Assembly: GCF_022549215.1 (NCBI RefSeq)
Contig: NZ_JAKZFC010000006.1
Span: 124,001-188,000, forward strand
Reading direction: 5' to 3'
From: Solibacillus palustris
GTDB taxonomy: Bacteria; Bacillota; Bacilli; Bacillales_A; Planococcaceae
Length of the DNA stretch: 64,000 nt
Shown here: one piece after another, positions 9,634-61,074 of the stretch
Layout: every line of letters begins with the position of its first letter
Numbering within the stretch: position 1 is the first letter of the stretch
Position numbers and translations under genes: made by a program
Notes under the pieces: generated by a model
Told to the model about the DNA's origin: nothing
What the model saw: only the letters and a program-made list of their open reading frames with translations
Databases searched by the model: none

Positions 9634-9839
9634 CTGTTCAAAGTCATAACTTTTTGGACAGTGCAAGCATCGTGTCGTATTAATCCGCTTTAGGCGGTGC
9701 TTCTGCGGTGGTCGCAAGATAAGAACGAATGCTAAAACCGTCACGTCCTGTGGCAACGCATTCATGACCAGCATCATGCTGGCCTCCATCCTCGGCGCAA
9801 AGGGAGTGTCCCAGAAATACTTCTTGGACACTCCCTTTC
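9634..9839. repeat. Intergenic repeat R1, copy a (partner at 60865-61074)
   Basis: About 205 bp bounded by two hairpins: CTGTTC...GGACAG on the left and a terminator-like AAAGGGAGTGTCC/GGACACTCCCTTT on the right. It aligns over its whole length with the reverse complement of 60865-61074 at roughly three-quarters identity by eye. It contains the folded module also found in R2 (GAATGC/GCATTC helix, inner loop, then CCAGCATCATGCTGG hairpin, 9727-9783). It lies between convergent genes and no ORF in it is credible. Confidence 0.85.
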
Positions 9840-9866
9840 TTATTATTGAGAGCACTTGAAAGAAAA

Positions 9867-10820
9867 TTAGTAATAATTGATAGCGTTTTTAATAAATGAA
9901 ATAAATTGTTCTTGTGAACTAGAAAGCTTATTTGATTTTTTATAATATAACATAATATTTTGGAACGCTAATGGATCGTCTATTTTATAAAAATATAATT
10001 TTTCCGTCGAAGACAAATATCGAGTGATACTAGCTCGAATGAAAGTAATTCCAATTCCCTTATTTGCAATTTCGTATGAAGTTAATAGTTGATCTAAATA
10101 CATAGAAACTTTAGGTGTAAAACCAGCGTTTTTGCATATTTTAAAACTTCTTTGATACATGTCATGGCCTTTTTTTAAAAGGATGAAGGTTTCATTTTCG
10201 AAAAGCTTCAGAGAAATCTTTGGATACTTTTCATTTTTATACGTACCGTCTGTAATATCGTGAAATGTTAAACGATTTTTTTTTAGTTTTTCATTTATTT
10301 TTAGGTGAGAAGGGACCGCCAATAATAGATCCTCTTTACTCCAAATGTTAGAATGAAATAATTTCGATTCAGATTTGTTTTCAACGTCAATAATTAAATC
10401 CACGTCTCCTTCACGTAAATATTTTATTAGAAGATCTGTATTGCCTTCAGTTAAATTTACCGTGTAATCCGCATATTCCGTGTTGAACTGCTGCACTAAT
10501 TTTGGAAGAACATATGTACAAAAAAATGAGGTACCACCAATATAAATTGTATTTTGGTATTGTTCCTTTAACTCGTCAAAATACGAACGCATCTCTTTTT
10601 CTAAATGCATTATATTTTCAATCGTGCTTATATAATGCTGTCCAGCAGGTGTTAATTTAATTGGATTATTGCTCCGATCAAAAATTGGTAACCCAATTGT
10701 TTCCTCAACTTTTTTTATCGTAGAACTTAAGGCTGGTTGGGAAATATATAATGCTTCCGCCGCTTTTGAAAAGCTTTTATACTTATATACCGCGTATACA
10801 TAGTCCATGTTTTTGAGCAT
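9867..10820 (-). CDS. LysR-family transcriptional regulator
   Basis: ATG 10820 with GAGGAGATC upstream; 317 residues. The N-terminal winged helix has the usual LysR signature (FSKAAEALYISQPALSSTIKKVEE, about 17-40 in sense), followed by a periplasmic-binding-protein-like effector domain. It sits between the class V enzyme and the divergent aminotransferase operon. Both flanking operons have the same promoter block (8216 and 10911), making this protein their likely activator with an amino acid or its keto product as inducer. Its own promoter lies in the 10821-11028 divergent gap. Confidence 0.92.
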   Translation of the reverse strand: MLKNMDYVYAVYKYKSFSKAAEALYISQPALSSTIKKVEETIGLPIFDRSNNPIKLTPAGQHYISTIENIMHLEKEMRSYFDELKEQYQNTIYIGGTSFFCTYVLPKLVQQFNTEYADYTVNLTEGNTDLLIKYLREGDVDLIIDVENKSESKLFHSNIWSKEDLLLAVPSHLKINEKLKKNRLTFHDITDGTYKNEKYPKISLKLFENETFILLKKGHDMYQRSFKICKNAGFTPKVSMYLDQLLTSYEIANKGIGITFIRASITRYLSSTEKLYFYKIDDPLAFQNIMLYYKKSNKLSSSQEQFISFIKNAINYY

Positions 10821-10910
10821 ACGATCTCCTCGTTTCAGCTAGAATATGTCTTTATGAAAAGTGTTTATTAAATTGTATTCAAAAATATCTTAATATTCAA
10901 ATATTTATAG

Positions 10911-10980
10911 GTTATAAGTAAAAATATATATCTTCATTTAATTAATAATATTGGAGTTCTGAAGAAATTACCTCTAATAT
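10911..10980 (+). promoter_or_regulatory. Promoter block shared with the 8343 gene
   Basis: GTTAT (10911), 4 bp, AAAAATATATA (10920-10930), 17 bp, ATATTGGAGTT (10948), with -35 TTGGAG at 10951-10956, 18 bp and -10 TAATAT at 10975-10980. Every block and interval matches 8216-8285. Confidence 0.65.
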
Positions 10981-11028
10981 TAAATTTAATAACAATCAAA
11001 ATTTTCTGAAATCGGGAGGCGGATAGTC

Positions 11029-12243
11029 ATGCAGTTAGTTGATAGGAAATTTTCAAAATTAGGAGCAGAATATGCCCCAGGACAAGAAGCTAGACAAAAT
11101 ACAGACGAACTTGTAGTAAGTTCTAAAGTGTATTCTGGAATTCCTGTTGATTTCTCACATGGTGATGTCGATGCATTTGAGCCAATACCAGGCTCATTAG
11201 AATTTTTTAATAAAGGCGTACACATTGGTGGTAAACAAGCATATACAGAATATCGCGGTAGCAAGGAAATTCGAGAAGAATTAGCAACAAAGCTTTCTAA
11301 TTTTATAGGATCTGAAATTAACGCAGTTGATAATTTAATTATCACTCCTGGTACACAAGGTGCATTGTTTTTAGCGATGGGTTCTACAATTTCTAGAGGA
11401 GATAAAGTAGCAATTGTTGAGCCAGATTATTTTGCGAATAGAAAGTTAGTGGAGTTTTTCGAAGGTGAAATCGTTCCTATTCAATTAGATTTTTTTGAGT
11501 CAGATGAAAAGGCAGGACTGAATTTATCTCAGCTAGAAGAAGCGTTTAAAGCGGGTGTTAAATTATTTTTATTTTCAAACCCTAATAATCCGACTGGTGT
11601 TGTTTATTCTGAAGAGGAAATTTTTAAAATCGCAAATTTAGCGGAAGAATATGAGGCAACATTAATTGTAGATGAATTATATTCAAGACAAATTTTTGAT
11701 AACCGAACTTACACGCATTTATACGCACAAAAAATTGTGTCATCAGAAAATTTGATTACGATCATGGGACCTTCGAAAACCGAATCACTAAGCGGCTACC
11801 GTTTAGGTGTAGCTTTTGGGTCAACTAAAATAATCGATAGAATGGAGAAATTGCAAGCTATAGTTTCTCTGCGTGCTGCTGGATATAGCCAATCGGTTCT
11901 AAAATCTTGGTTTTCAGAGCCTGAAGGATGGATGGAAGACCGAATTTCTAAGCATCAATTAATTCGAGATGATTTAATTGCTAAATTACAAGCGGCAGAT
12001 GGTTTTAAAGTCAGAGCTACTGAAGCAGGTAGCTACTTGTTTCCAGAAATTCCTGAATTAAAAATTTCTATTCATGAATTTGTAAAGGCACTAAGGGTAC
12101 AAGCGGGGGTTACAGTAACACCAGGAACTGAATTTGGCCCACAATACGTAAACAACTTTAGAATTAACTTCTCACAAGATCATCAAGCTGCAGTAGCCGC
12201 GATGGAACGAATTATTCAAGTAGTGGAGGAATATCGCAAATGA
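11029..12243 (+). CDS. Class I/II aminotransferase (fold type I PLP)
   Basis: ATG 11029 follows GGGAGGCGG; 404 residues. Signature residues are SNPNNPTG (183-190), the pyridine-pairing Asp215 with Tyr218 in VDELYSR, and the Schiff-base Lys250 in GPSKTESLSGYRLG. Substrate is not evident. It overlaps the RidA gene by 4 nt and is thus translationally coupled to it, which suggests that its reaction releases a reactive enamine or imine. With the symporter downstream it likely degrades an imported acidic or hydroxy amino acid. Confidence 0.88.
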   Translation: MQLVDRKFSKLGAEYAPGQEARQNTDELVVSSKVYSGIPVDFSHGDVDAFEPIPGSLEFFNKGVHIGGKQAYTEYRGSKEIREELATKLSNFIGSEINAVDNLIITPGTQGALFLAMGSTISRGDKVAIVEPDYFANRKLVEFFEGEIVPIQLDFFESDEKAGLNLSQLEEAFKAGVKLFLFSNPNNPTGVVYSEEEIFKIANLAEEYEATLIVDELYSRQIFDNRTYTHLYAQKIVSSENLITIMGPSKTESLSGYRLGVAFGSTKIIDRMEKLQAIVSLRAAGYSQSVLKSWFSEPEGWMEDRISKHQLIRDDLIAKLQAADGFKVRATEAGSYLFPEIPELKISIHEFVKALRVQAGVTVTPGTEFGPQYVNNFRINFSQDHQAAVAAMERIIQVVEEYRK

Positions 12244-12680
12244 TGCATGCAGGAACTCCGATTCCTCAAGGTAAGTACGTTCCTGCAAAAAGAGTAGGGA
12301 ATCTTATTTTTACAGCAGGTATGACACCACGTGAAAATGGCGTATTAATTCAATCCGGGAAGATTAAATCTGATTTTGTAATTGAAAATGTCAAGCAGGC
12401 AATCAGGTTAGCTGCTACTAACACATTAAGTGCTTCTTTAAAACTTTTAGATATAAATGAAAAAATTGAAAGTGTTATCTCAATGACAGTTTATATTAAT
12501 ACAGAAGAAAATTTTGAACTACATTCAAAAATTGCTGATATTGCATCGGATTATTATTTTGAAGTTTTAGGAGAGGCTGGGATTGGCAGTAGAGCGGCTG
12601 TTGGAGTAGCTAGCTTGCCTGGTAATGCGCCTATTGAAATTCAATTAGTAGTTAGTGTGACTGAGGTAGAAAATAGTTAG
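12240..12680 (+). CDS. RidA-family imine/enamine deaminase
   Basis: ATG 12240 overlaps the aminotransferase stop (ATGA) and has GGAGGAATATC upstream; 146 residues, the normal length. The family Arg is in GSRAAVGVASLPGNAPIEIQLV near the C-terminus, preceded by VISMTVYI. RidA proteins form trimers that hydrolyse 2-aminoacrylate and similar imines to keto acids and ammonia. Coupling to a PLP enzyme is the classic arrangement, so it probably clears an intermediate of that enzyme. Confidence 0.9.
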   Translation: MMHAGTPIPQGKYVPAKRVGNLIFTAGMTPRENGVLIQSGKIKSDFVIENVKQAIRLAATNTLSASLKLLDINEKIESVISMTVYINTEENFELHSKIADIASDYYFEVLGEAGIGSRAAVGVASLPGNAPIEIQLVVSVTEVENS

Positions 12681-12712
12681 TAGGTTTTTACTTAATTCCT
12701 TTTAAAAATATA

Positions 12713-12726
12713 TGTAAGCGCTTTTA
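12713..12726 (+). promoter_or_regulatory. Probable CcpA cre site before the symporter gene
   Basis: TGTAAGCGCTTTTA differs at one position from the cre consensus TGWAANCGNTNWCA. It suggests carbon catabolite repression of the symporter and fits a catabolic role for this island. Confidence 0.55.
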
Positions 12727-12792
12727 TATCCATGTGATTTTATTAAATAAATTAATAGGTTTGTCAGTAAACTTATGAAGGAGGCGTCACTT

Positions 12793-14109
12793 ATGAAATG
12801 GTGGTTGAAACGTCCGCTTTATGTTCAAATTTTTATTGGAGTTGTTCTTGGTATAATTCTAGGTTTAATTTTTAAAGAGGACATTACTGTTATTAAACCA
12901 ATAGGGGATATTTTCCTAGCACTTTTACAATTCTTAGTTGTTCCTTTAACAATCTTCTGTTTAATTGCTGGTATTTTAAAAATGGAAGACATTCGGTCGT
13001 TAAGACAAATTGGTGTTAGAATTGGAGTATATTTTATCGTAACAGGTATTTTAGCGACAGCAATGGGGATTATTGTTGCGTTATTTTTAAATCCAGGTAA
13101 AGGTACTACAGGGATTTTAGAAGGTACTAAAGAAGTCGAAGCAGTTGAATTTAGTTTTATGAATCAAATTGTGAGTTGGTTCCCGAGAAATATGGTACAG
13201 GCGATGGCTGAAACGAACATGCTTCAAATCATTATTGCCTCTTTAATTATAGGTATTGCTTTACTATCATTAGGCAATAAGGTAAGCGGGTTGAAAAAGT
13301 TGGCGAATGAAGGTTCAGATTTAATGATTAAAATCACGGAATTCATTATGTATTTATCGCCAATTGGTATTTTAGCTTTAGTAGCGAATATGGTGGGTAC
13401 ATTAGGTACAGATTTATTAAAAGAAGTAGGCAGATTTATTCTCGCTGACTATATTGGACTATTAATCGTTTTAGGTGTAATTTACCCAATAATTATTAAA
13501 TTGTTAGCGAAAAAGAATCCATTTGTATTTTATAAGAAAATCTCACCTTCGCTTTTAGTTGCTGCTAGTACAACATCTAGTAATGCAACATTACCAGTTT
13601 CAATGAATGTAGCTAGAAAAAATCTAGGTATACCTGAAAAAGTATACGGATTTACATTACCGTTAGGTGCTACTGTTAATATGGATGGAATGGCTGTAGG
13701 TTTAGGTGTAATCTCGGTTTTTGCAGCGAATTTATATGGACTTGAAATTACATTACCCTTAATTTTACAGTTTGTATTTTTAGGACTAGTATTATCGATT
13801 GGGGCAGCAGGTGTTAAAGGTGCAGGAATCATCATGTCTACTATTTTATTATCTACACTGGGCTTGCCATTAACACTCGTGCCAATTTTGGCAGCAATTT
13901 GGCCAATTATCGATATTGGGCATACGACTACAAATATTACTGGAGATTTAACAGGTACGATGATGGTAGCTTCTCAATTAGATATGGTAGATGAAGCAGT
14001 ATATGAAGGAATGATTGAATTAGATGATGAAATTGAACCACAACCTGTAAATGAAAAAGCTAATAGCGAGAGTCTATTATTCAACAAAAATGAAGAATAT
14101 ACTATTTAG
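12793..14109 (+). CDS. Dicarboxylate/amino acid:cation symporter (DAACS, GltP/DctA-like)
   Basis: I choose ATG 12793, which has GAAGGAGGCG 8 nt upstream, giving 438 residues. Eight membrane helices and two re-entrant hairpins are expected. The serine-rich hairpin SLLVAASTTSSNATLPVS, the NMDG motif in TVNMDGMAVG and a final helix with GHTTTNITGDL are diagnostic. DAACS carriers import glutamate, aspartate or C4-dicarboxylates with protons or sodium. It lies 112 bp after ridA with its own cre-like site, so it may have its own promoter as well as read-through. Confidence 0.93.
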   Translation: MKWWLKRPLYVQIFIGVVLGIILGLIFKEDITVIKPIGDIFLALLQFLVVPLTIFCLIAGILKMEDIRSLRQIGVRIGVYFIVTGILATAMGIIVALFLNPGKGTTGILEGTKEVEAVEFSFMNQIVSWFPRNMVQAMAETNMLQIIIASLIIGIALLSLGNKVSGLKKLANEGSDLMIKITEFIMYLSPIGILALVANMVGTLGTDLLKEVGRFILADYIGLLIVLGVIYPIIIKLLAKKNPFVFYKKISPSLLVAASTTSSNATLPVSMNVARKNLGIPEKVYGFTLPLGATVNMDGMAVGLGVISVFAANLYGLEITLPLILQFVFLGLVLSIGAAGVKGAGIIMSTILLSTLGLPLTLVPILAAIWPIIDIGHTTTNITGDLTGTMMVASQLDMVDEAVYEGMIELDDEIEPQPVNEKANSESLLFNKNEEYTI

Positions 14110-14151
14110 TTATAAATGAACAAAGCTTATTGAATCATTTTCTTGATGAGT

Positions 14152-14198
14152 AAACAATTTAAATGTGCAAAATGCATATTTAAATTGTTTGCTTTTTT
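14152..14198 (+). terminator. Terminator after the symporter gene
   Basis: AAACAATTTAAATGTGCA at 14152-14169 pairs with a near-perfect complement ending at 14190, followed by GCTTTTTT. Confidence 0.85.
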
Positions 14199-14932
14199 AA
14201 TAATACTAAGTTCGATTTGATCATGGTTCATATCCAAAAGTAGGAGATGACAATTAATTATAAATTGGAATATAATGGAGGTTGAGTGGAAGAAGCGTTT
14301 CATCCGACTCCCCCGGAAAGTTTCCAGATGAAATAGACATTAACACGAAGTAATGTTTGTGAAGAATATCCTGTTTAAATAAATATATATTAGGTGATTT
14401 AGAGGGGGAGTAATGTAAAATTTCTCTTGTTTTTAATTTTTATAGTATAATGTATGTATATTGGATTGGAGGTAACTAATGATTTGTTAATTCTATCCAT
14501 AAAAACGATTCGTTTGGAAGGTGTATGAACTACTACCTCGATCGCAGTTTACATTATCACTCTAGAAATTATTTTTGAAGACATGAAGCATCTTTTCTTT
14601 TTAAAATGAGGAGATGACCTCATTTATTAGACGAAGTTTAAAAATTAATACCAGAGCTAGAATGGTTTTTCTCAAGAAAAGTATTACGCTTTTAAAAAAT
14701 CTATGACATCTATCAGTGCGTTAGGTCAACACAAAGTTGATTAAGTAGGCGTTATCATATGACGTGACGCGTATAGCCTTTATTCCTCTATTCAACCAGG
14801 GTTTGCCCCCCGTTGAATGAAGGACATACTTGGACATTTATGCCCCATTTATAGAAATGGAGGACGGTTTCTAAGACAAGTGAAAATTGTGTGAAGAAAA
14901 ATAAAACAAAGTTAAATTCTGAGGAAATTAAT
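14199..14932. other. Long non-coding gap before the PAS chemoreceptor
   Basis: No credible gene is seen. It holds a TATAAT near 14453, a three-codon ORF with a good ribosome site (GGAGG, ATG 14479) and an imperfect inverted repeat near 14791-14818 (TTCAAC...GTTGAA around CAGGG and CCCCCC). The last resembles debris of a mobile element, but I cannot assign it. Confidence 0.5.
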
Positions 14933-15844
14933 ATGAATAAATTAGAAAATTTAATAGTAAGAGATGAACTCGTAGTAAAGGCGATTGAAAAAAATTTAGC
15001 AATCATTCGATTTGATACGAATTGTAAGGTCGCCTATGTAAATGATTTATTTGCAAAAACATTAGGTTATAACAAAGAAGAACTGTATGGAATGCATCAT
15101 GCGGAATTTTGTTTTAATGAGTTTGTAAATAGTACTTCATACAAACAATTTTGGCGGAATCTATTTTCGGGTCATAGCTACCAAGATAAAATTGAACGAA
15201 AAGACAAAAATGGTAACCAAGTATGGCTAGAAGCAACGTACATGCCTATTTATGATGATTACCATCGAAAGGTTATTGGAGTTTCTAAAATAGCAACGAA
15301 TATAACAGAAAGACAAAACGCTGTAGTCTCTGTTGTTAAAGAACTAACCGAGATGTCTGAAAATCTAAACGAAAAAGCTGAAGGTGGTATTAACAATAGT
15401 AACTATCTTTTAGAAACAATTGATAATATAGCGAAGGAATCCAAGCAAAACATTGAAAACCTATCCACACTCCAAAAACAGGCAGAATCGATAAATAGTA
15501 TTACTCGTACGATTCAGGATATCGCCGCACAAACTAACCTTTTAGCGTTAAATGCTGCTATTGAGGCTGCTCGTGCTGGGGAAGCGGGTCGAGGATTCGA
15601 TGTAGTTGCTAAAGAAGTTCGGAAACTTTCAGATAAAGTTCATCAATCCATTTCGGAAGTAAAGAATAATATTCATTTAATTACAAAAGAAATAAATTCA
15701 GTTACTGAAAGTATTGGTAGAGTTCATCAAAGTATTCAAACTGGCCAAGTACAAGTGAATCATACAATCGAGGATTTCAATGTTATCTCAACGTCCGCCG
15801 AGCAGTTAGAAAAAAGAGCACATGATTTTACTGAGATCATCTGA
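14933..15844 (+). CDS. Soluble PAS-domain methyl-accepting chemotaxis sensor
   Basis: ATG 14933 is preferred over GTG 14891 because GAGGAAA lies 5-8 nt before it; 303 residues. A PAS domain (about 15-125, with NITERQ at its end) is followed by a short signalling hairpin with [39 protein letters not shown], the CheA/CheW-contact tip. There is no membrane segment, so it senses an intracellular cue, perhaps redox or energy state through a bound cofactor. The coiled coil is shorter than in membrane receptors. Confidence 0.92.
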
Positions 15845-16021
15845 TATGGAAAGGAATTTCAAGAGCATTAATTGATAAATTATTCCATAATAACGTTCAC
15901 TAAAAATATACATTTGACTGAAAAATCCCGAGTATTTTTTCAAAGTTGATAGAATAGGATAATTTGAAGGGTGATTTTTGCCATTCAAGCAATATTTAAC
16001 ATTGGAAAAGGGGTTGGAAAC

Positions 16022-17227
16022 ATGTCAGACGTTCTAAAGCAATTTGTCATGCCATCATCAAACTTATTTGGACCAGGAGCAATTCAAGAAGTTGGTAAAA
16101 AACTAAAAGATTTAGAAGTGAAGAAGACATTGATCGTAACAGATGAGGGCTTACACAAATTAGGGCTCTCAGAACAAATTGCTAACATCATTACAGCTGC
16201 TGGTATTGAAGTTGCAATTTTCCCGAAAGCAGAACCAAATCCAACGGACAAAAATATTGAAGATGGTATCGCGGCTTATGTAGCCGATAACTGTGATTCA
16301 ATTGTATCGCTTGGAGGCGGTAGTGCACACGATGCAGCAAAAGGTATCGGTATTATTGCTTCGAATGGTGGACGCATTCATGATTATGAAGGCGTAGATA
16401 AAACACAAAATCCATTAGTGCCATTAATCGCTATCAATACGACTGCTGGTACAGCAAGTGAAATGACACGCTTTACGATTATTACAGATACAGAGCGTAA
16501 AGTAAAAATGGCGATTGTCGACAAACATGTTACCCCTCTTGTATCAATTAATGACCCTGAGTTAATGATTGGTTTACCACCAGCACTAACGGCAGCAACT
16601 GGTTTAGATGCATTAACACATGCAATCGAAGCATTTGTTTCAACAAATGCAACGCCAATTACAGATGCTTGTGGCGAAAAAGTACTGCAATTAATTCCTG
16701 AGTATTTACCGCGCGCTTATGCAAACGGTGCAGATTTAGAAGCACGCGAGCAAATGGTTTACGCTCAATTTTTAGCAGGAATGGCGTTCAACAATGCATC
16801 ATTAGGTTATGTACATGCCATTGCCCATCAATTAGGTGGCTTCTATAACCTTCCACACGGTGTATGTAACGCAATTTTATTACCACATGTTTGCCGTTTC
16901 AACTTAACAGCACGCACAGAACGTTTTGCAAAAATTGCTGAATTATTAGGTGCAAACATTGAAGGTCTAAGCAAGCGCGATGCTGCTGAAAAAGCAATTT
17001 CAGTTATTGAAGCGTTAGCAAAAGACTTAAATATTCCAAGTGGCTTCCGTGAACTTGGTGCGAAAGACGAAGACATCGAAATTTTAGCTAAAAATGCGAT
17101 GTTAGATGTTTGCGCAGCGACAAACCCACGAAAAGCTACTCTTGAAGATATTAAACAAATTATCACAAATGCAATGGGACCGGTTGTGGTGCCTGCAAAC
17201 CAAAATGAAGCTGTAACAGTTTCTTAA
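16022..17227 (+). CDS. Iron-containing alcohol dehydrogenase
   Basis: ATG 16022 (MSDVLKQ) follows AAAAGGGG and starts with the family N-terminus; 401 residues. NAD-binding GGGSAHDAAKG is at 98-108. Metal ligands are an Asp in the NDPELM region, the His of THAIEAFVS, and two His in HAIAHQLGGFYNLPHG. It belongs to the group with methanol dehydrogenase of Bacillus methanolicus, 1,3-propanediol dehydrogenase and AdhB, so it interconverts a primary alcohol or diol and its aldehyde. Monocistronic with terminator 17241. Confidence 0.93.
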   Translation: MSDVLKQFVMPSSNLFGPGAIQEVGKKLKDLEVKKTLIVTDEGLHKLGLSEQIANIITAAGIEVAIFPKAEPNPTDKNIEDGIAAYVADNCDSIVSLGGGSAHDAAKGIGIIASNGGRIHDYEGVDKTQNPLVPLIAINTTAGTASEMTRFTIITDTERKVKMAIVDKHVTPLVSINDPELMIGLPPALTAATGLDALTHAIEAFVSTNATPITDACGEKVLQLIPEYLPRAYANGADLEAREQMVYAQFLAGMAFNNASLGYVHAIAHQLGGFYNLPHGVCNAILLPHVCRFNLTARTERFAKIAELLGANIEGLSKRDAAEKAISVIEALAKDLNIPSGFRELGAKDEDIEILAKNAMLDVCAATNPRKATLEDIKQIITNAMGPVVVPANQNEAVTVS

Positions 17228-17240
17228 TTACCAAAACACA

Positions 17241-17276
17241 AAAAACCTTTGGAGACTTTATCCAAAGGTTTTTTTA
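17241..17276. terminator. Bidirectional terminator between convergent genes
   Basis: AAAAACCTTTGGA pairs with TCCAAAGGTTTTT; A-run on one side and T-run on the other serve both the dehydrogenase and the leftward chemoreceptor gene. Confidence 0.9.
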
Positions 17277-17284
17277 TTACGAAT

Positions 17285-20087: not shown

Positions 20088-20108
20088 ATGAAAAAAACGA
20101 AAATCTTG

Positions 20109-20141
20109 AAGCAGTTAGGCTGAGGCCTAATTGCTTTTTTT
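20109..20141 (+). terminator. Terminator after the VOC gene
   Basis: AAGCAGTTAGGC pairs with GCCTAATTGCTT around TGAG, followed by a T-run. Confidence 0.88.
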
Positions 20142-26159: not shown

Positions 26160-27131
26160 ATGAAAGAAAATTTTTGGACGGAGCTACCGAAGCCGTTTTT
26201 TGTATTAGCACCAATGGAAGATGTAACGGACTGTGTGTTCCGCCATGTTGTTGCTGAGGCAGGTGCACCGGATGTGTATTTTACAGAGTTCACAAACTCA
26301 GAGAGCTATTGCCACCCGAATGGTATTGAAAGTGTGCGCGGTCGTTTAATGTTCACAGAAGATGAGCAACCTATTGTGGCACATATTTGGGGAGACAATC
26401 CGGATAACTTCCGCAAGATGAGTATCGATTTAGCGGAAATGGGCTTTAAAGGAATTGATTTAAACATGGGCTGTCCTGTGCCAAATGTTGCAGGACGTGG
26501 AAAGGGCTCAGGTTTAATTTTACGACCAGATGTAGCGGCAGAGCTGATTGAAGCGGCAAAAGCAGGTGGAATTCCGGTAAGTGTGAAAACACGATTAGGC
26601 TACAAAGAGGTAGATGAGTGGAAGGAATGGCTAACGCATATTTTAAAGCAGGATATCGCCAACCTTTCGATTCACTTACGTACGCGCAAAGAAATGAGTG
26701 CAGTTGATGCACACTGGGACCTTATTCCTGAAATCAAAGCACTACGTGACGAAATTGCACCGAATACGTTATTAACAATTAACGGTGACATTTTAGATCG
26801 CCAAATGGGCTTAGAACTAGTAGAAAAATATGGTGTAGACGGTGTCATGATTGGGCGCGGTATTTTCAAAAATCCATTCGCTTTCGAAAAAGAGCCAAGA
26901 GAGCATACAAGTGAAGAACTACTGGATTTGTTACGTTTACAATTAGACTTGCAAGATAAATATGCAGATCAATTGCCACGCTCAATGTCAGGCTTACACC
27001 GCTTCTTCAAAATTTACGTAAAAGGCTTCCGCGGTGCTGGAGAATTGCGTAACCAATTAATGCATACGAAATCTACAAATGAAGTACGTGCATTATTAGA
27101 CAACTTTAAAGCACAACAAGTAATAGAATAA
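26160..27131 (+). CDS. dus: tRNA-dihydrouridine synthase
   Basis: ATG 26160; 323 residues. An FMN TIM barrel with [13 protein letters not shown] at the start, the catalytic Cys in [35 protein letters not shown] and [13 protein letters not shown]. These mark a Dus enzyme that reduces uridines in the tRNA D-loop with NADPH. The GCPVPN phrase and short C-terminus set it apart from the usual DusB of Bacillus (GCPAPKV). Monocistronic, terminator 27141. The ribosome site is weak (GAGAGGATAG). Confidence 0.92.
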
Positions 27132-34381: not shown

Positions 34382-34570
34382 TTAAATCCCCACCTTCGAA
34401 TCATTCTTGATACTTAGTGTGTCCAAAAAGTGCTCATTTTAATGCGATTAATTTTAAATTAAAAAATATTAATGAAAGCAAAACTTTATGGATTCTGGGG
34501 ATAATTTTACTGGTATTACGTACGCCATTGGGCTATCCACTTTATGTAAAAGCACGATTGGTGAAAGCTA

Positions 34571-46471: not shown

Positions 46472-46833
46472 TTAACTTGATTCAGCAAATCCTTTTTGTA
46501 CCGAAAGTGAAGCGACAGGTACGAAAAGTCCCCTACTTCTATTAAGTGGGGGTTAAAATCCCAGCTGAATGGAGGAACTCAGGTTAAGGACGCCGCATCG
46601 TGCGGCAACACCTGAGTGACCAACATCGTGTAGGCCCAAGCCCCGGCGGATGTCACAGATTTTTAGGGGATTTTTAAAGAGGAAGTCAGCCTAAAGACGT
46701 CACATCGTGTGACAACGGCTGACTGACCCACGTCCTGTGGCCCCGAGCTTGAAAAAATCTGGACGCTATTACGCAGAGGCGTAATTGATAAAATCATTTC
46801 AATGAATAAACGATTTGCAAATAGGTGCAAAGG
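46472..46833. repeat. Intergenic repeat R2, copy A, with two folded modules
   Basis: Starts TTTAACTTGATTCAGC, then a short unit with AGTCCCCTACTT/AAGTGGGGG-type pairing ending CCCAGCTGAAT. Two folded modules follow: 46577-46638 (ACTCAGGT/ACCTGAGT enclosing GCCGCATCGTGCGGC) and 46684-46743 (AGTCAGCC/GGCTGACT enclosing GTCACATCGTGTGAC), each followed by a third hairpin. An outer helix joins CAGATTTTT to AAAAAATCTG, and a hairpin with AATTACGC and GCGTAATT ends it, before a trailing ATAGGTGCAAAGG. No ORF. Confidence 0.88.
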
Positions 46834-46891: not shown

Positions 46892-47136
46892 TTTAACTTG
46901 CTTCAGCAATCATCTCTCACTTATAGAAGTGGAGTATGAATGCCCGAGAATGTACTTCATTCAACAGGTGTTCAAATCCCAGCTGAATCAAATTATTGCT
47001 CCCGGAGGATGTCACAGATTTTTTAGAGGAGTTTTTCGAGCTAACTCGAAAAAAATCTGGACGCAATTACGCCGAGGCGTAATTGAGTGTTTCACGCTGA
47101 ATATTTAAATTGGAATTTAGAAATTAGGTGCAAAGG
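46892..47136. repeat. Intergenic repeat R2, copy B, without folded modules
   Basis: Starts TTTAACTTGCTTCAGC, ends its first unit at CCCAGCTGAATCAA (inverted relative to the start), then GGATGTCACAGATTTTTT, CGAGCTAACTCG hairpin, AAAAAATCTGGACGC and the AATTACGCC/GGCGTAATT hairpin; trailing TTAGGTGCAAAGG. It is in tandem with copy A but lacks the central modules. Confidence 0.85.
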
Positions 47137-52560: not shown

Positions 52561-52615
52561 AACGAATATGTAATGAAATCTATTTTAATGATTCAACTAC
52601 GAAACATGGGGTTGA

Positions 52616-52741: not shown

Positions 52742-52748
52742 ATTGGTG

Positions 52749-52777
52749 AACCTGAACGTTTGTATGTTCAGGTTTTT
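52749..52777 (+). terminator. Terminator after the thiolase remnant
   Basis: AACCTGAAC pairs with GTTCAGGTT then TTTC; it was probably the thiolase terminator and may now end the sugar operon. Confidence 0.85.
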
Positions 52778-52872
52778 CTTCTGTTTTTAGTATGTTAGGC
52801 TATATGCAAATTACACCAACGTTCATGGAATATGGTACACTGAAAACAATGAATAAAAGGTGGTAAAACAAT

Positions 52873-54108: not shown

Positions 54109-54111
54109 CAG

Positions 54112-55341
54112 ATGACATTTGAAGAAAAATTAGAGCAATTTGCTGAGTTAGCCGTTAAAATTGGTGTCAATGTTCAAAAGGGTCAATATTTATTAATCAA
54201 CACTTCTACTGATACGTTAGATTTCACACGTATCGTTGTAAAGAAAGCTTATGAGGCAGGCGCTGGGCGTGTGCATGTCAACTTAACAGATGCAAGCTTC
54301 GAGCGTGCCTATTATGAAAATGTTACAGTTGAAGAAACTGCGAATTTCCCGAAATGGACTGTTGCACAGCGTGAAGAATTAATCGAGCGTAAAGGTGCAT
54401 TACTGTGGATCGACGCGGAAAATCCGGATTTATTAGCAGGGATTGATGTTAATAAAATCGGTGCACAACAAAAAGCGGCGGGTACAGCATTAGTAAACTA
54501 TCGTAAAGCAGTTATGAACGACGATATTGCATGGTCAATCATCGCTGTGCCATCACCAAAATGGGCAGCTAAAGTATTCCCAGAGTTACCTGAAAACGAG
54601 CAAGTAGAAGCTTTATGGGAAGCAATTTTCAAAACAGTTCGTATCGGAGAAGGCAATGCCGTAGAAAACTGGGAAGGTCATATCACGAATCTACATGCGC
54701 GTGCAGATCAGTTAAATGCGAAGAAATATGCAAAACTACATTACACTGCTCCAGGCACAGATTTAACTATTGAATTACCTGAAAAGCATTTATGGAAAAG
54801 CGGTAGCAGCAAGACACCTGCTAATACAACATTTATTGCCAATATGCCGACTGAAGAGGTATTTACATTACCGGCGAAATTTGGCGTGAATGGCTATGTT
54901 TCTAATACAAAACCACTTGTTTATAAAGGCAATATTATTGACGACTTTAAGCTCACATTTGAAAAAGGGAAAATCATTGGTGCAGAAGCTAAGGTTGGTC
55001 AAGATTTACTGCAACAATTAATCGATTCAGATGAAGGCTCTCGATATTTAGGTGAGGTAGCATTAGTACCACACGAATCACCTATTTCAGCGTCGAATAT
55101 TTTATATTACAATACCTTATTTGATGAAAACGCCTCGAACCACTTGGCAATTGGTGAAGCTTACCCAACTTGCTATGAAGGTGGTAAGGAGCTAGAAAAA
55201 GGACAATTAGAGACATTAGGTATTAACACGTCAATTACGCATGAAGATTTCATGATTGGTAGTGCGGAAATGAATATCGACGGAATTTTAGCAGATGGCA
55301 GAGTCGAACCAATCTTCCATAAAGGAAATTGGGCATTTTAA
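54112..55341 (+). CDS. Aminopeptidase, peptidase family M29 (AmpS-like)
   Basis: 409 residues from ATG 54112; GAAGGGGAAA at the end of the helicase gene serves as ribosome site. Metal ligands are expected in NMPTEEVFT (Glu), LGEVAL (Glu), NHLAIG (His), the Tyr of YPTCYEGG and the late MIGSAEMNIDG (Asp). M29 enzymes remove N-terminal residues using two Co, Zn or Mn ions. Cytosolic. Confidence 0.93.
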   Translation: MTFEEKLEQFAELAVKIGVNVQKGQYLLINTSTDTLDFTRIVVKKAYEAGAGRVHVNLTDASFERAYYENVTVEETANFPKWTVAQREELIERKGALLWIDAENPDLLAGIDVNKIGAQQKAAGTALVNYRKAVMNDDIAWSIIAVPSPKWAAKVFPELPENEQVEALWEAIFKTVRIGEGNAVENWEGHITNLHARADQLNAKKYAKLHYTAPGTDLTIELPEKHLWKSGSSKTPANTTFIANMPTEEVFTLPAKFGVNGYVSNTKPLVYKGNIIDDFKLTFEKGKIIGAEAKVGQDLLQQLIDSDEGSRYLGEVALVPHESPISASNILYYNTLFDENASNHLAIGEAYPTCYEGGKELEKGQLETLGINTSITHEDFMIGSAEMNIDGILADGRVEPIFHKGNWAF

Positions 55342-55439
55342 CTTCTAATGGTTTCTATGTGAAACAAATTGAAAATAATAACGCTTAAGACGGAATGTAT
55401 GCAGAAATGTAAATGATTTTTTATGGGCGAGGTGAAGTG

Positions 55440-56291
55440 ATGCGCAAGTGTTTGTTCGCGCTACTAATTTGTTTATTGTTACCAGCACAAGCTATGGCAA
55501 ATGAACGTGAAGTATATATCGCGCTCGGCGATTCTTTAGCAGCAGGGCAAACACCGTATTCACAAATCGATGCGGGTTACACGGATTTTATTGCATTGCA
55601 ACTTCAAAAGAAAGGGAAGCTAGCCCATTTTACAAAAGAGCTTACTTTCCCTGGATATCGTGTAAGTGATGTAATTGATACTGTTAAGTCTGAGCAAGCC
55701 GAGTTGTTACTTCAAGATGCCACGGTCATTACCATTTCGGCAGGTGCTAATGATTTATTACCGTTAATCGCGCATAATCCGAATCAAGGGACACTGAATT
55801 TTTCACAACTCAATGCAAACTTGGCGTTAAATAATGTGCGTGAAGAAATGGCTCAATTGCTGCTGCTTGTACGTGAACTTGCGCCAAAAGCAGATGTATA
55901 TGTAGTAGGTTACTATTTCCCGTATGTCAGTGTACATCAAGAGCAAGTAGGGGGAGCAGCCACAGCGCTAAAATTATTGAATGATATTTTGGCGCAAGAG
56001 GCAAAGCGAGCAAGCATGACCTTTGTTGATGTATATGATAGCTTCGAAGAAAATCGAGGGAAGTATTTAACGAATAATAATGATGTACATCCAAATCAAC
56101 TCGGTTATTTAATAATGGCGAATGCGATACTGCGAAGCTATAGCGAAGGTGATTCGTTACAATTGCAGGCTAGCGATTTACCAGCACCTAACCCAAAAAG
56201 CTTTGAACAAATACTACAGTTACGTGAACAAATTCAAAGTAAGACGGTAACCATTCATAATGTCAAAGCACCATTAGCAATATACGTTTAA
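55440..56291 (+). CDS. SGNH/GDSL-family lipase or esterase, exported
   Basis: ATG 55440 behind GAGGTGA; 283 residues. Signal peptide LFALLICLLLPAQAMA, then block I GDSLAAG (Ser nucleophile), block III GANDLL and block V DVHPNQLGY (Asp, His). Secreted esterase of unknown substrate. The last two bases of its TAA stop (56290-56291) are also the first bases of the AACTTGATTCAGC segment of repeat R2, copy C. Confidence 0.92.
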   Translation: MRKCLFALLICLLLPAQAMANEREVYIALGDSLAAGQTPYSQIDAGYTDFIALQLQKKGKLAHFTKELTFPGYRVSDVIDTVKSEQAELLLQDATVITISAGANDLLPLIAHNPNQGTLNFSQLNANLALNNVREEMAQLLLLVRELAPKADVYVVGYYFPYVSVHQEQVGGAATALKLLNDILAQEAKRASMTFVDVYDSFEENRGKYLTNNNDVHPNQLGYLIMANAILRSYSEGDSLQLQASDLPAPNPKSFEQILQLREQIQSKTVTIHNVKAPLAIYV

Positions 56292-56523
56292 CTTGATTCA
56301 GCAAATTCTTTTTGTACCAAAAGCGAAGCGACAGGTATAGAAATCCCCTACTAAGTGGGGGCTGAATAGAGGAACTCAGGCTAAGGACGCCGCGTCGTGC
56401 GGCAACACCTGAGTGACCAACAGCGTGTTGGCCCAAGCCCCGGCGGATGTCACAGATTTTTCAGGTGAATTTTTCAAGCAAGCTTGAAAAAATCTGGACG
56501 CAATTACGCCGAGGCGTAATTGA
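56288..56523. repeat. Intergenic repeat R2, copy C, with one folded module
   Basis: TTAACTTGATTCAGC at its start, CCCCTACT/AAGTGGGGG-type hairpin, one module at 56374-56433 (ACTCAGG/CCTGAGT enclosing GCCGCGTCGTGCGGC, then CCAACAGCGTGTTGG hairpin), GGCGGATGTCACAGATTTTT, an AAGCAAGCTT core, AAAAAATCTGGACGC and the CAATTACGCC/GGCGTAATTG hairpin. High identity to copy A outside the second module. Confidence 0.9.
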
Positions 56524-56538
56524 TCAATTATATAAACA

Positions 56539-56584
56539 AAACACCACAATATACGAACGAGCATTCGTATATTGTGGTGTTTTT
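56539..56584 (+). terminator. Strong terminator before sbcD
   Basis: An 18-bp perfect stem (AACACCACAATATACGAA and complement) is followed by TTTT. Confidence 0.88.
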
Positions 56585-56637
56585 GATGGCACTCATGTAC
56601 ACTAAAAATAAGATCTTTTGACTAGGAGGCGTCACTC

Positions 56638-57798
56638 ATGAAAATCTTTCATACAGCAGATTGGCATTTAGGAAAACTTGTACAAGGTGTAGCGATGACA
56701 GAAGATCAGGCGTACATTCTACAACAATTTATTGAGGAAATAAAAATTGAAAAGCCCGATGTTGTGATGATTGCTGGTGATTTATATGATCGCTCTGTTC
56801 CGCCAACAGAGGCAATTCAACTCTTAAATAAAATATTTAAGCAAATATTAATCGACGAAAAAACGCCTATAGTTGCGATTGCAGGAAATCATGATAGCGC
56901 AACACGTTTAAATTTTGGTAGTGATTTAATGAAGGCAAGTGGCTTACATTTAGTTGGTCATTTAGAAAATGACATAGAGCCAGTTATTTTGCATGATGAA
57001 TTTGGTGAGGTGCATTTTTATTTAGTACCATTTGCAGAGCCATCAACAGTGCGCATTCTTTTTGACGATGATTCGATTACAACACATGAAGCGGCGATGG
57101 CAAAAATTATTGAACACATTAAAGGGAAGCTTGATTCGACGAAGCGCAATATTATTATGGGACATGCCTTTATTACAAAGGATGGTATGCCTGAACTAAA
57201 CACGAGTGATTCGGAGCGCAAGTTAACGATTGGTGGTACCGAATGCATAAATGCAGCGCTATTTGAGCCATTTTGCTATACAGCACTTGGTCATTTACAC
57301 CAAGCCCATTTTGTTGCAAATGAAACGATTCAATATTCAGGGTCCCCACTTAAATATTCAGAATCAGAAGTGACACATAAAAAAGGTTTTTTAATGTTAG
57401 ATTTAGCGTTGGATGGTACGGTTTCTGTAGAGAAAAAACTGCTAGTACCGAAACGTGAAATGCGGATTGTAACGGGCTTTTTAGACGATATTTTACAACA
57501 TAAGAAAAGTGACGATTATGTATTTGTGAAGCTAGAAGATGAAGGCTATGTTAAAGGTGCAGCAGAACTTGTTCGTACTGTGTACCCAAATGCATTGCAC
57601 ATCGAGCGCTTAGCCGTTTTTGCACAAATGGAGCAGCAATCAGCAACGATGAATCGTGTACAAATGGACGATTCAGAGCTATTTGAGTTATTTTATAGTG
57701 AAATGACAGGTAAAGAACTTACAGCTGATATCAAATCAATTTATACAAATGTACTCCAACAATTACTTGATAACGAACGCGAAAAGCAGGAGGTGTAA
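56638..57798 (+). CDS. sbcD: Exonuclease subunit SbcD (Mre11-like nuclease)
   Basis: 386 residues, ATG 56638 behind CTAGGAGGCG. Metal motifs: DWHLGK (Asp8, His10), GDLYDR, AGNHDS, GHAF and GHLHQAH. SbcD is the Mn-dependent nuclease that with SbcC opens hairpins and blocked DNA ends, a relevant activity in a genome with many long palindromes. It ends 4 bp before sbcC. Confidence 0.96.
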   Translation: MKIFHTADWHLGKLVQGVAMTEDQAYILQQFIEEIKIEKPDVVMIAGDLYDRSVPPTEAIQLLNKIFKQILIDEKTPIVAIAGNHDSATRLNFGSDLMKASGLHLVGHLENDIEPVILHDEFGEVHFYLVPFAEPSTVRILFDDDSITTHEAAMAKIIEHIKGKLDSTKRNIIMGHAFITKDGMPELNTSDSERKLTIGGTECINAALFEPFCYTALGHLHQAHFVANETIQYSGSPLKYSESEVTHKKGFLMLDLALDGTVSVEKKLLVPKREMRIVTGFLDDILQHKKSDDYVFVKLEDEGYVKGAAELVRTVYPNALHIERLAVFAQMEQQSATMNRVQMDDSELFELFYSEMTGKELTADIKSIYTNVLQQLLDNEREKQEV

Positions 57799-57802
57799 AT
57801 AA

Positions 57803-60800
57803 ATGAAGCCATTAAAATTATCCATGACGGCATTTGGTCCTTATAAAGACAAGGAAGTAATTGATTTTACACAGTTGCATGAACATGGCATTTTCGTCGT
57901 TTCGGGTTCAACAGGTGCGGGAAAAACGACGATTTTTGATGCGATTACATTTGCCCTATATGATGCAGGGAGCGGTGAAGACCGCGATAAATCCTTATTT
58001 TTACGAAGTGATTTTGCTGATATCACAGTAGATACAGAGGTAGAACTAGAGTTTGAGGTGCGCGGCCGTATATACCGTATTTGGCGTAAGTTTGGTCATG
58101 ACGGAGACCGTGCAAAGCGTGAGTTTTATGATATAACAGGCGGACAGATAATACCTGCTGTTGAAAAATTCCAAGTAAAGCTAGTACAAGCAAAGGTTGA
58201 GGAATTAATTGGTCTAACGCAATCACAATTTAACCAAATTGTGATGCTACCACAAGGTGAATTCCAAAAGCTCTTAACATCAGAGTCTAAGCATAAGGAA
58301 GAGATTTTCCGTAAAATTTTCAAAACAGAGCGCTTTACAAAAATGGTAGAGCTACTGCGTGATAAAAAGAAACAGGCAGAAAAATTGTACGAGCATGCAC
58401 AAATGCAGCAAGACCATACCATTCAAGAAATAAAATCGCGTTTACCAGAACGTGAATCGGCGTTATTTGCCGCAATCAACTATGATGCGATTAATATGTA
58501 TCAAATAAAACAGGGGCTTATAGAAGAACAAGGCTTTTATGAGCAACAATCAACCGAGCTTTCACAACAATATGAACAAGTAAAAGGACTTGCAACAAAG
58601 TTAAATATACAGTTTAGTGAGCAAAAGCTCATTAATGAACGTATTGAACGCTTTATGCAACGTCAAACCGAACTTTCATGTTTACAGCAACAACAAAATG
58701 AAATGGCTATACAGGAAGAACGATTACTGCTTGCACAAAAAGCGCATCAAATTGAGCCACTGGAGCGCGAATTATCTAAGCTAAAATCACAGCTTCAGTC
58801 AGCGACGACGGCAGTAGAAAAGGCTAAACTAGAATCCGAACAAGCCAAGCAGCAACTCATTACGGCAACACAAGCCTATGAAAACGTGCAGAAGGATGAA
58901 GTATTATTAGAAACGTATACAAAAAATATTTCGCAGCTTGAACAAATAATTCCTATTTATGAAACAATTGATATTCAGCGCAATCATGTCGAGCAGCTAA
59001 AGGCACAGCAGTGTAAAGCACAAACCTTATATGATAATTTACAGGGGGAATTGGTTGAATTAAAGCTACAGCAACAAAACCAACAAAATGTTGTAACAGA
59101 GCTTGAACAGGCTGTAGCACAGTATGAACAAACATTTGAAGCCCATGCCACAGCAGCTCGCAATGTTGAGCTTGTAAAAGAGACAGCAAAACTGCAAATG
59201 AACATAGAGCTATTAAAGGCTGATGCGTTGTCTAAGGAGCAGCAAGCAACAAAAGCTGAGCAAGCCTTACATGAGGTAGAGCAACAAATTCGTAGCAATC
59301 AGGCCGCCTTTTTAGCTGCCTCATTGCACAATGGGGATGCTTGCCCGGTATGTGGTAGCACAGAACATCCAGCTATTCATAATAGTGAAATGCTTCATGT
59401 GGATGACACGCAAATAGAGCAATTGCGACAACATTCAGATGCAGCTCGCCAAAGCTATTATCAAGTACAATCAAAACTTGAAATTGAGCAACAAACAAAT
59501 ACTGAAAAGCATAATCAAATACAACGCCAGCAATTACAGCTAGAGGCATTAGCACAGTATGAGGAACAGCTACAAACATTAGCTACACATCTAGCAGATT
59601 TGCGAGTAAAGCAACAGCAATTAACAACTGAACGCACACAGCTAGAACAATTCAACGAAAAGCGTGAAGTAATCCAAGGGCGTCTTGAAAAAGGACAGGC
59701 ATACGTTCAAGAAATTCAGACGCAGCTAGCACAGGAAAAGGGCAAACTTGAGCAAAGTGAGCTATCATTGTTACCACAATTTACTACAGTTGCTGAAGTT
59801 CAAATTGCTTTATCCAATCAACTTCAGCAGCATCAATCATTAAAGAATGAGTTAAAGCGAGCTTTCGATGCATTACAACAGGCTCAATTACAGCAAAATT
59901 CAAGTGAGGTCAATCAGCTACATGCGGTGAATCATTTATCGGATAAGCAGCATGAGCATGAATTAGCACATATTGCATTTGCAACAGCTCTGCAAAACGA
60001 ACACTTCTCACTAGAAAGCTATCAACAAGCATTATTAGCAGAGCAAGCACAGCATGAAATTCGTCAGATGCTTGAAGCGTACAAGCAACAGCTGCATACA
60101 TTAACGGCGCAAATTACTGAAGACCAGGAGCAGCTTGAAGGAAAGCAGCTGGCGGATTTAACAGAGCTCCAACAACAAATTACAACTTTAAATAACGAAC
60201 AAGACGAGCGATATGCAACGATGAAACAAACGGAATCTTATGTAACACAATGCATAACAACATTACAAAAGCTTGAGCAATCCGCTGACCAAATTGAAAG
60301 CTATAAAGTAAAATTACAGCAAATGGAGCAGGTATACGATCTTGTGCGTGGTCAAAATGATGCGAAAATCAGTTTTGAACGCTTTGCACAAATTGGCTAT
60401 TTAGAAAAAGTAACGCATGCCGCAAATGAACGCTTACGGATTTTATCCAATGGTCAATATTTCCTGAAATCTACTGGACGTAAAGAGGGTAATGCGCAAA
60501 GTGGTTTAAGCATTGATGTGTATGATAGCAATACAGGGCAAACACGTGATGTGAAAACGTTATCTGGCGGCGAAAAATTCAATGCTTCATTATCATTGGC
60601 ACTTGGGATGGCGGATGTTATTCAAAGTGTACAAGGAAGTGTGCATATTGATACGATGTTTATCGATGAAGGTTTTGGTACGCTCGATGAGGAGGCGTTA
60701 CGCCGTGCGATTGATATTTTAATCGACCTTCAGCAAACAGGACGACTTATCGGTATTATTTCGCATGTCGCCGAATTAAAAGCAGCAATGCCAGCGATTT

Positions 60801-60856
60801 TACAAGTGAAAAAGTTAAAAGAAGGTCATAGTACAACTGAAATTATTGTGAAGTAA
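57803..60856 (+). CDS. sbcC: Exonuclease subunit SbcC (Rad50-like ATPase)
   Basis: 1017 residues. Walker A GSTGAGKTT near residue 34-42, QSQFNQIVMLPQGEFQKLL (Q-loop region), two Gln-rich coiled-coil arms, zinc hook CPVC at 514-517, signature LSGGEKF, Walker B TMFIDEGFGTLDEEAL and the H-loop His in ISHVAELK. All functional elements are intact. The arms are unusually Gln-rich. Confidence 0.96.
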   Translation: MKPLKLSMTAFGPYKDKEVIDFTQLHEHGIFVVSGSTGAGKTTIFDAITFALYDAGSGEDRDKSLFLRSDFADITVDTEVELEFEVRGRIYRIWRKFGHDGDRAKREFYDITGGQIIPAVEKFQVKLVQAKVEELIGLTQSQFNQIVMLPQGEFQKLLTSESKHKEEIFRKIFKTERFTKMVELLRDKKKQAEKLYEHAQMQQDHTIQEIKSRLPERESALFAAINYDAINMYQIKQGLIEEQGFYEQQSTELSQQYEQVKGLATKLNIQFSEQKLINERIERFMQRQTELSCLQQQQNEMAIQEERLLLAQKAHQIEPLERELSKLKSQLQSATTAVEKAKLESEQAKQQLITATQAYENVQKDEVLLETYTKNISQLEQIIPIYETIDIQRNHVEQLKAQQCKAQTLYDNLQGELVELKLQQQNQQNVVTELEQAVAQYEQTFEAHATAARNVELVKETAKLQMNIELLKADALSKEQQATKAEQALHEVEQQIRSNQAAFLAASLHNGDACPVCGSTEHPAIHNSEMLHVDDTQIEQLRQHSDAARQSYYQVQSKLEIEQQTNTEKHNQIQRQQLQLEALAQYEEQLQTLATHLADLRVKQQQLTTERTQLEQFNEKREVIQGRLEKGQAYVQEIQTQLAQEKGKLEQSELSLLPQFTTVAEVQIALSNQLQQHQSLKNELKRAFDALQQAQLQQNSSEVNQLHAVNHLSDKQHEHELAHIAFATALQNEHFSLESYQQALLAEQAQHEIRQMLEAYKQQLHTLTAQITEDQEQLEGKQLADLTELQQQITTLNNEQDERYATMKQTESYVTQCITTLQKLEQSADQIESYKVKLQQMEQVYDLVRGQNDAKISFERFAQIGYLEKVTHAANERLRILSNGQYFLKSTGRKEGNAQSGLSIDVYDSNTGQTRDVKTLSGGEKFNASLSLALGMADVIQSVQGSVHIDTMFIDEGFGTLDEEALRRAIDILIDLQQTGRLIGIISHVAELKAAMPAILQVKKLKEGHSTTEIIVK

Positions 60857-60864
60857 AAGAAACG

Positions 60865-61074
60865 AAGGGCTTGTCCGGAAAGTAATTTCTGGACAAGCCC
60901 TTTGCGTCGAGGATTGAGACTAGCACGAAGCTAGTCACGAATGCGTTGTCACAGGACCTGAAGTTTTTAGCATTCGTTCTTTACTTGCGAACACCACGAA
61001 AAGCAGCCTACAGCGGATAATTAACACATGAGTGGAGCACTGTCCAAAAAGTTAACACTTTTAGGACAGTTCCT
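60865..61074. repeat. Intergenic repeat R1, copy b (inverted relative to copy a)
   Basis: Bounded by GAAGGGCTTGTCC/GGACAAGCCCTTT at the sbcC side, which can act as terminator, and ACTGTCC/GGACAGT at the other. On the minus strand it aligns with 9634-9839 and has the folded module (GAATGC/GCATTC helix; GACTAGCTTCGTGCTAGTC hairpin). Helix arms differ from copy a by paired changes. Confidence 0.85.

Follow-up and report, generated by a model that had tools for sequence, protein, structure and literature searches.

Bacillaceae-1 as a possible nested mobile hairpin cassette in Solibacillus palustris and related genomes

Modules and carrier repeats in the window

We have analysed 64,000 nucleotides (nt) of Solibacillus palustris DNA (assembly GCF_022549215.1, contig NZ_JAKZFC010000006.1, positions 124,001 to 188,000), hereafter called the window, in which a small folded module recurs within two larger repeats, R1 and R2. 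An earlier note, made from the sequence alone, had described five such modules with a shared plan and had treated them as uncatalogued. When the window was searched with the Rfam covariance models (cmscan), six matches to RF01690, Bacillaceae-1, were obtained, all six above the gathering cut-off of 35 bits (37.8-71.1 bits). The repeated module is thus a family already catalogued under that name, and by name it is the kind of known element that the note had listed as a ground for refutation. All five modules were recovered within about 20 nt of their earlier places, and a sixth was added.

On the plus strand, module copies lie at 9720..9788 (RF01690 match 9716-9782, 71.1 bits; the ends of the unit correspond to about model positions 5-73), at 46572..46640 (match 46568-46634, 71.1 bits), at 46679..46747 (match 46675-46741, 70.6 bits) and at 56369..56437 (match 56365-56431, 68.1 bits). 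On the minus strand the fifth copy is found at 60914..60982 (match 60920-60986, 58.4 bits), and the sixth, a degenerate module within a decayed R2 copy, at 14720..14788 (match 14726-14792, 37.8 bits).

The first R1 carrier (9629..9838, plus strand) consists of a left hairpin (about 9631-9664), the module and a right terminator-like hairpin (about 9799-9838). The second (60865..61064, minus strand) is located between a small open reading frame (ORF) and a convergent ORF ending at 60856, at a place where the genome of a nearby species, G162, has a plain hairpin that by eye is terminator-like. For the right hairpin of R1, "terminator-like" is a reading from shape and position: its stem is strong but interrupted, with the tail TTTCTTAT, and the rule of a GC-rich stem plus a T run gave no intrinsic terminator in 9600-9900. 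In the whole draft genome 29 of 35 R1 copies follow a same-strand gene and 26 of 35 precede a convergent gene. When R1 sites were compared with a relative lacking R1, a plain hairpin, again terminator-like by eye, was present in four of the five displayed cases (C39:194176 and C1:1167264, compared with the same-species genome G150; C1:1083987 and C39:184920, compared with G162); the fifth was C1:1036140 (G162). R1 had no match in plasmid records, and an R1-specific pattern had none in a scan of named genomes. At 34409-34440 a fragment, with the rest of R1 missing, matches the left arm of the left R1 hairpin at 72% as an inverted repeat.

One R2 carrier (46476..46789, plus strand) is flanked on the left by TTTAA, ends on the right in GGCGTAATTGAT, and holds two modules, one at the foot of its left hairpin and the other in the loop of its CAGATTTTT/AAAAATCTG hairpin. 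Next to it, at approximately 46897..47086 on the plus strand, lies an R2 copy without a module, where about 198 nt separate the flanking alignments here and 8 nt in G150. Another R2 carrier (56292..56524, plus strand) has one module, and in G150 the corresponding place is an empty site, GTTTAA joined directly to CAATTATA, clean on both sides and without target duplication. R2 terminates in GGCGTAATTGAT, and 26 of 39 left ends stand exactly after TTTAA; a looser scan gave 56 candidates, a few of them false. Gene calls cover 25 left ends: in eight of these the TAA of the motif serves as the stop codon of a same-strand gene, and in 13 a stop on the same strand is found no more than 60 nt away, so that the position of R2 at stop codons is at least in part explained by the TTTAA target. 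A stretch at 20092-20138, just past a stop codon, is 62% like the R2 right end and holds a AGGCTGAGGCCTAATT-type palindrome; it may be a decayed R2 end or a chance likeness.

Folding of module-less R2 places hairpins near both ends, and by inspection no inverted-repeat ends were seen. In a comparison with the left ends of IS605-type elements (20 loci of the same family), the R2 left arm was 84% identical over 44 nt to one locus (L130; E 4e-7) and 78% over 50 nt to another (L127); the right ends of the compared elements were unlike that of R2. TTTAAC occurs 119-170 nt upstream of tnpA in seven of 15 fetched Y1 transposase loci, two pairs among these being near-identical elements, and two IS605 copies in one genome (L147 and L153) diverge just before TTTAAC. 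The likeness to IS200/IS605 ends, which had been proposed for comparison with the module, was thus seen at the R2 left end and not for the module itself. R2 resembles a non-autonomous element of the IS200/IS605 type. An IS605-type element in another genome (L154, in G064) has a left end, beginning TTTTAACTTAGTTTAGGCAGAAGTCGCCC, that by eye agrees with the R2 left arm, and is a candidate source of an enzyme moving R2. R2 had no match in plasmid and phage records, and in several genera it was found with the module at an unchanged position.

In a repeat search R1 paired with R1 and R2 with R2, the fragments at 20092-20138 and 34409-34440 excepted. The two repeats share the module alone, and R2 also occurs without it, which bears out the earlier view that the module stands apart from both as a unit. 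The draft genome (3.99 Mb in 42 contigs) contains at least 101 RF01690 matches at E<=1e-3, a lower bound with 150 of 444 candidates scored, and 100 of the 101 exceed the cut-off. Grouped by their flanks, 35 are located in R1, 35 at a first and 13 at a second site of R2, six in a further repeat, R3, and 12 elsewhere, some of the last being in truncated R1 or R2. None of the 101 lies within a gene predicted by a home-made gene caller.

Covariation and the folded strand

The plan of the module is that of the Rfam consensus (helix 1, TAA linker, helix 2, AAC, helix 1', TGA, hairpin 3), with the same three helices and five-base loops. Covariation was assessed with the 67-nt copies from this genome that exceed the cut-off (85 of 101, 82 distinct) and with 30 copies from other genera (29 distinct), taken from 20 stretches picked at high-scoring matches. 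In the first set 90.9% of cells were paired, compared with 75.0 +/- 0.6 in shuffled alignments, and in the second 96.1% compared with 76.8 +/- 1.1, the second alignment having been fitted to the RF01690 model and hence biased towards it. The claim that pairing is kept while the bases change was confirmed: double-change cells numbered 222 in the first set (71.5 +/- 5.7 when shuffled) and 87 in the second (20.1 +/- 3.4). Double changes were seen in 13 of 17 pairs of the first set, a marginal result (43 of 500 shuffles as high), and for a measure of further pair types the shuffles were as high in 83 and 144 of 500 runs for the two sets, neither of which stands out. The shuffles leave the relatedness of the copies in place; in a control in which the pairing partners were slid, pairing fell to 27-40% in both sets. 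Compensatory change in the module is real and far beyond chance, and with it the proposal of selection on a folded single strand, RNA or DNA, gains support from both sets of copies.

Such covariation is what would be expected of a functional RNA selected at its sites, for example a small RNA (sRNA), a 3' untranslated element, an rRNA-leader element or, on the reverse strand, a decoy for the regulator CsrA. The Rfam entry, typed "Gene; sRNA", and the frequent place of R1 downstream of a same-strand gene agree with this explanation, which we nevertheless hold to be rather unlikely. Strong covariation alone is no proof of a regulatory RNA, since the same pattern would be expected of a mobile unit recognised in the form of a folded strand, and the stop-codon position of R2 has the at least partial explanation in its target given above.

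The strand on which the fold forms can be judged from mismatches, since an A.C cell on one strand is a G.U pair on the opposite one. On the Rfam strand, non-Watson-Crick cells were A.C in 71 cases and G.T in 20 among the copies of this genome, and 13 and 2 among those of other genera, whereas 47 distinct sequences of the R2 right-end palindrome, taken as a control helix, had 18 of each, along with 57 other mismatched cells. Much of the excess is held by pair 11/49; without it the counts were 42 A.C and 19 G.T in this genome, and 14 and 10 at the free pairs of 60 non-redundant copies from other genera. The asymmetry, taken from related sequences, is suggestive only. For pair 52/68, beside hairpin 3, A.C was counted in 52 of the 60 non-redundant and 77 of the 85 own copies; on the reverse strand it would be a G.U pair lengthening hairpin 3. 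Predicted folding was more stable on the reverse strand in 55 of 60 non-redundant and 76 of 85 own copies, and on the Rfam strand in three and six, respectively; in the window the reverse strand had the lower predicted energy in four of five copies. Shuffled sequences also favour the reverse strand, about half as strongly (-2.6 versus -5.0 kcal/mol). Wobble asymmetry and folding energies together make the reverse complement of the Rfam model the likelier folded strand, not a proven one, which goes beyond what the earlier note had proposed.

In PMC4333381 the strand of the family is called doubtful and CsrA binding is proposed for the reverse complement, where the CsrA motif GGA would appear as TCC in the loops as written here. 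In this genome the hairpin 2 loops (n=85) are ATCGT in 28 copies, GTCCT in 22, GTCGT in 15 and others in 20, and the hairpin 3 loops ATCGT in 41, TTCGT in 14 and others in 30. Reverse-strand GGA is present in hairpin 2 of 28, in hairpin 3 of eight and in both loops of only two of 85 copies, yet the fold is kept. For this genome a reverse-strand decoy for CsrA was therefore rejected, in spite of the presence of csrA (PF02599, E 2e-26). Among the 30 copies from other genera, TCC stands in the hairpin 2 loop of 28 and in the hairpin 3 loop of 17, so the CsrA reading may be better suited to these genera than to this genome. Loop counts for hairpin 2 in the named loci are uninformative on this point, the search pattern having fixed those loops.

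Module ends, carriers and turnover

In an order-wide search the module was found in 202 of 261 genomes; in a phylum-wide draw with strict filters, five of 397 genomes besides that of S. palustris had an RF01690 match at E<=1e-3. In the module pattern scan the 80 listed of 117 stretches were searched with the model, and further stretches served as BLAST subjects. An 11.4-kb contig classed as viral (L246, IMGVR_UViG_2547132169_000002) carries three modules and may be bacterial sequence wrongly binned.

Conservation ends sharply at the module. In 60 non-redundant flanks, drawn from 94 ungapped copies (21 of 87 pattern-scan matches and two of 30 other-genera matches were not exactly 67 nt long and were left out), the information content is mostly 0.4-2.0 bits inside model positions 3-73 and at most about 0.3, typically about 0.05, outside them. 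When the two flanks of each module were joined and searched, a module-less relative was found for 141 of 214 modules (E<=1e-4) and, under a stricter search (E<=1e-5, 213 modules), for 35 of 76 flank clusters, where one carrier may be split among several clusters and the weakest flank matches are about 70% identical. By eye, carriers seen in both states are of about ten unlike kinds. They include R1, R2 at two sites, R3, a GCGCC..GACAAGCATAAG repeat and a CACTGAT..ACCAATCGG repeat; others come from named Bacillaceae, among them Terrihalobacillus, Rossellomorea, Metabacillus and Lentibacillus. The module is thus not confined to two repeat families, as had been thought.

In module-less R2 and R1 the stems are intact (TTAACTTGATTCAGC..GCTGAATCAAGTTAA and GGTGGTCGAAATAAAATTTCCACC, respectively) and are broken by the module where it is present, suggesting that the direction is one of insertion and that most carriers seen in both states have probably gained the module rather than lost it. 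The opposite reading, in which a single repeat superfamily has the module as its ancestral core and has had its outer parts swapped, the module-less forms being deletion derivatives, is quite improbable. The presence of R2 with its module at the same place in several genera does speak for an old association, and deletions do occur: at C1:1018968 the best module-less relative in G150, an R2 copy (L073), keeps only the first module part, AGGGAACAAAGGCTAA, as if the remainder had been deleted. On this reading it is harder to see why the stems of the module-less forms should be complete and paired, or why the module uses two different sites within R2. By inspection, the G150 allele at C1:865551, described below, is also unlike a simple slip between the flanking repeats of the allele in the genome under study.

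Two genomes of the same species differ in their modules. Among loci with both flanks aligned in the fetched blocks, a module was found at the orthologous place in G150 for 13 of 20 modules, in G162 for one of 15 and in G164 for none of three. Two of the 13 rest on one shared weak match, and the seven absent from G150 represent six loci. G150 in turn has modules that are lacking in the window, near 26664 and 28622 of the compared block. The module comes and goes, a point that the earlier note had not made, and such poorly conserved sites (one of 15 in common with G162) argue against a functional RNA selected at its sites. At C1:865551 the flanks and the R2 copy are 97-98% alike in the two genomes, about 62 nt are present only in the genome under study, and the corresponding arm in G150 is complete and paired. 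This difference and that at window 56365 look, from the sequences compared, like gains in the genome under study.

The reading we favour, with a probability of about 0.55, is that the module, about 62-69 bp long, is a hairpin cassette, nested and mobile but non-autonomous, which spreads at two levels. At the first it would ride in larger non-autonomous repeats, namely R2, a putative IS200/IS605-like palindrome-associated element inserting 3' of TTTAA, and R1, a presumed terminator-associated repeat carrying the module. At the second the module itself would insert nearly precisely into hairpin arms or loops of many unlike repeats, and also into terminator regions and some 16S ribosomal RNA (rRNA) leaders, displacing a short stretch. 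The fold, which most likely forms on the complement of the Rfam strand, would be maintained because a single strand, DNA or RNA, is recognised in its folded state when the module is moved, and the mover may be an enzyme acting in trans, perhaps of the Y1/HUH kind. In line with insertion into hairpins, one or more predicted pairs surround 34 of 35 insertion points, the mean depth being 22.7 versus 17.5.

Several observations weigh against a nested mobile cassette. The 34 of 35 can be supportive only, as most positions of hairpin-rich carriers also lie within pairs, and the flank clusters are not independent. When the module is taken to span model positions 5 to 73, it replaces about 4-16 nt in the flank alignments (1 nt at C1:865551), and neither a target consensus nor a duplication was found at the insertion sites. 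C1:865551 is the only place where near-identical genomes differ by the module alone. At C1:920039 G150 has a right-end remnant, not a clean empty site, and at C1:1017041 only the two end hairpins; both are likely losses or internal deletions in G150, as an ancestral core would also have it. At C1:1017041 the empty site of R2 in G162 (CTTTAA followed by unlike sequence) is clean on the left only. At R1 sites and in rRNA leaders a hairpin seems to have been replaced, and the pattern is not that of a simple insertion, as at C39:194176 and C1:1167264, where the genome under study has R1 and G150 a plain hairpin. Finally, a search limited to the families PF01797 (Y1 transposase) and PF07282 (TnpB) gave no match to either in the draft genome, and none to PF01797 in G150.

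Three of these kinds of observation (the missing Y1 and TnpB matches, the short stretch replaced at junctions without a target duplication being found, and the apparent swapping of a hairpin for the module) are what would be expected if the module were copied between palindromes by gene conversion or by template switching during replication, with no dedicated enzyme and with R1 and R2 moving by themselves. Palindrome copying, whether through recombination or through template switching, has to be taken seriously as an alternative, albeit one we consider unlikely. The carriers are unlike beside the module, leaving nothing outside it with which homology-driven conversion could pair; the local carrier arm at C1:865551 is kept right up to the module; and conservation ends sharply in 60 unlike flanks.

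Leaders of rRNA operons offer a further setting in which a functional RNA could be sought. In the genome G399 the module is located in three of six 16S leaders (L181, L187, L192), directly upstream of the 16S gene, where it takes the place of a CAAAAC-TTCG-GTTTTG hairpin between boxA and the 16S start; in G453 it is found in one leader (L188), the three others ending at contig ends. Both cases favour a role as RNA. In contrast, none of 26 16S leaders of five genomes of the same family as S. palustris, a set to which the leaders of the present assembly do not belong, carries the module, and a general function in rRNA leaders was rejected on this ground. The link with rRNA is sporadic, like that of an insert, and a local use as RNA is possible. 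Among other structured RNAs, the window also contains a thiamine pyrophosphate (TPP) riboswitch (RF00059, 66.9 bits) at 61724-61833 on the plus strand, upstream of the ORF 61868-62497.

A more far-reaching form of the favoured reading, that Bacillaceae-1 is an independently mobile parasite of repeats of about 62 bp, inserting in hairpins via the folded reverse complement of the catalogued "sRNA", is put forward tentatively, at somewhat less than even odds; to our knowledge an element of this size would be among the smallest mobile elements. If the module is a nested mobile cassette, the sRNA annotations derived from RF01690 need revision, and one would then ask by which enzyme 62 bp are inserted into hairpins. 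As two genomes of one species differ at seven of 20 compared modules, or six loci, the mobility could be followed by sequencing.

Comparison with known systems

RF01690 itself shares sequence and structure with the module, 100 of the 101 listed matches exceeding the gathering score. In Rfam the family is typed as an opposite-strand sRNA gene, whereas in this genome it behaves as a nested repeat whose reverse strand pairs better. Five-base loops of the RUCCU type and adjacency to rRNA are part of the family description, whereas the loops of this genome are often RTCGT. A 2022 review (PMC9029176) lists RF01690 in a table of abundant sRNAs without giving a function, and no description of Bacillaceae-1 as a mobile element was found in the mainly open-access literature searched, in part as excerpts; one may be in print elsewhere. 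With TwoAYGGAY RNA and other CsrA decoys, as presented in PMC4333381, the reverse strand of the module has in common two hairpins with A-S-G-A-Y loops, often AGGAY in other genera; in this genome GGA is absent from most loops while the pairing is intact.

Like the REP elements tagged by GTAG or CGTC, as outlined in PMC3733652, the module is small, palindromic, multicopy and non-coding. REP elements are a single palindrome of 20-40 nt, whereas the module folds three helices in about 65 nt, and the present genome is without a PF01797 match; on the ground of size and fold, identity with a REP palindrome was rejected. R2 is closer to the PATEs and other non-autonomous IS200/IS605 elements, with which it shares hairpins near the ends, a fixed left-flank motif and the lack of a duplication at its one clean empty site, in addition to a left arm like the IS605 left ends of the same family. 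Its right end differs, the genome lacks a PF01797 match, and the modules in R2 appear to be of another origin. PATEs are reportedly known from a study of Haloquadratum.

The pneumococcal BOX and RUP elements, the enterobacterial RU and bcr1 are likewise short, structured, intergenic multicopy repeats, and such small mosaic repeats are presumed to move in trans. Of these, bcr1 is named in PMC3733652. What sets the present case apart from them is that one module of about 65 nt occupies some ten unlike carriers across genera of the Planococcaceae and Bacillaceae, the family of some genomes being deduced from the named loci.

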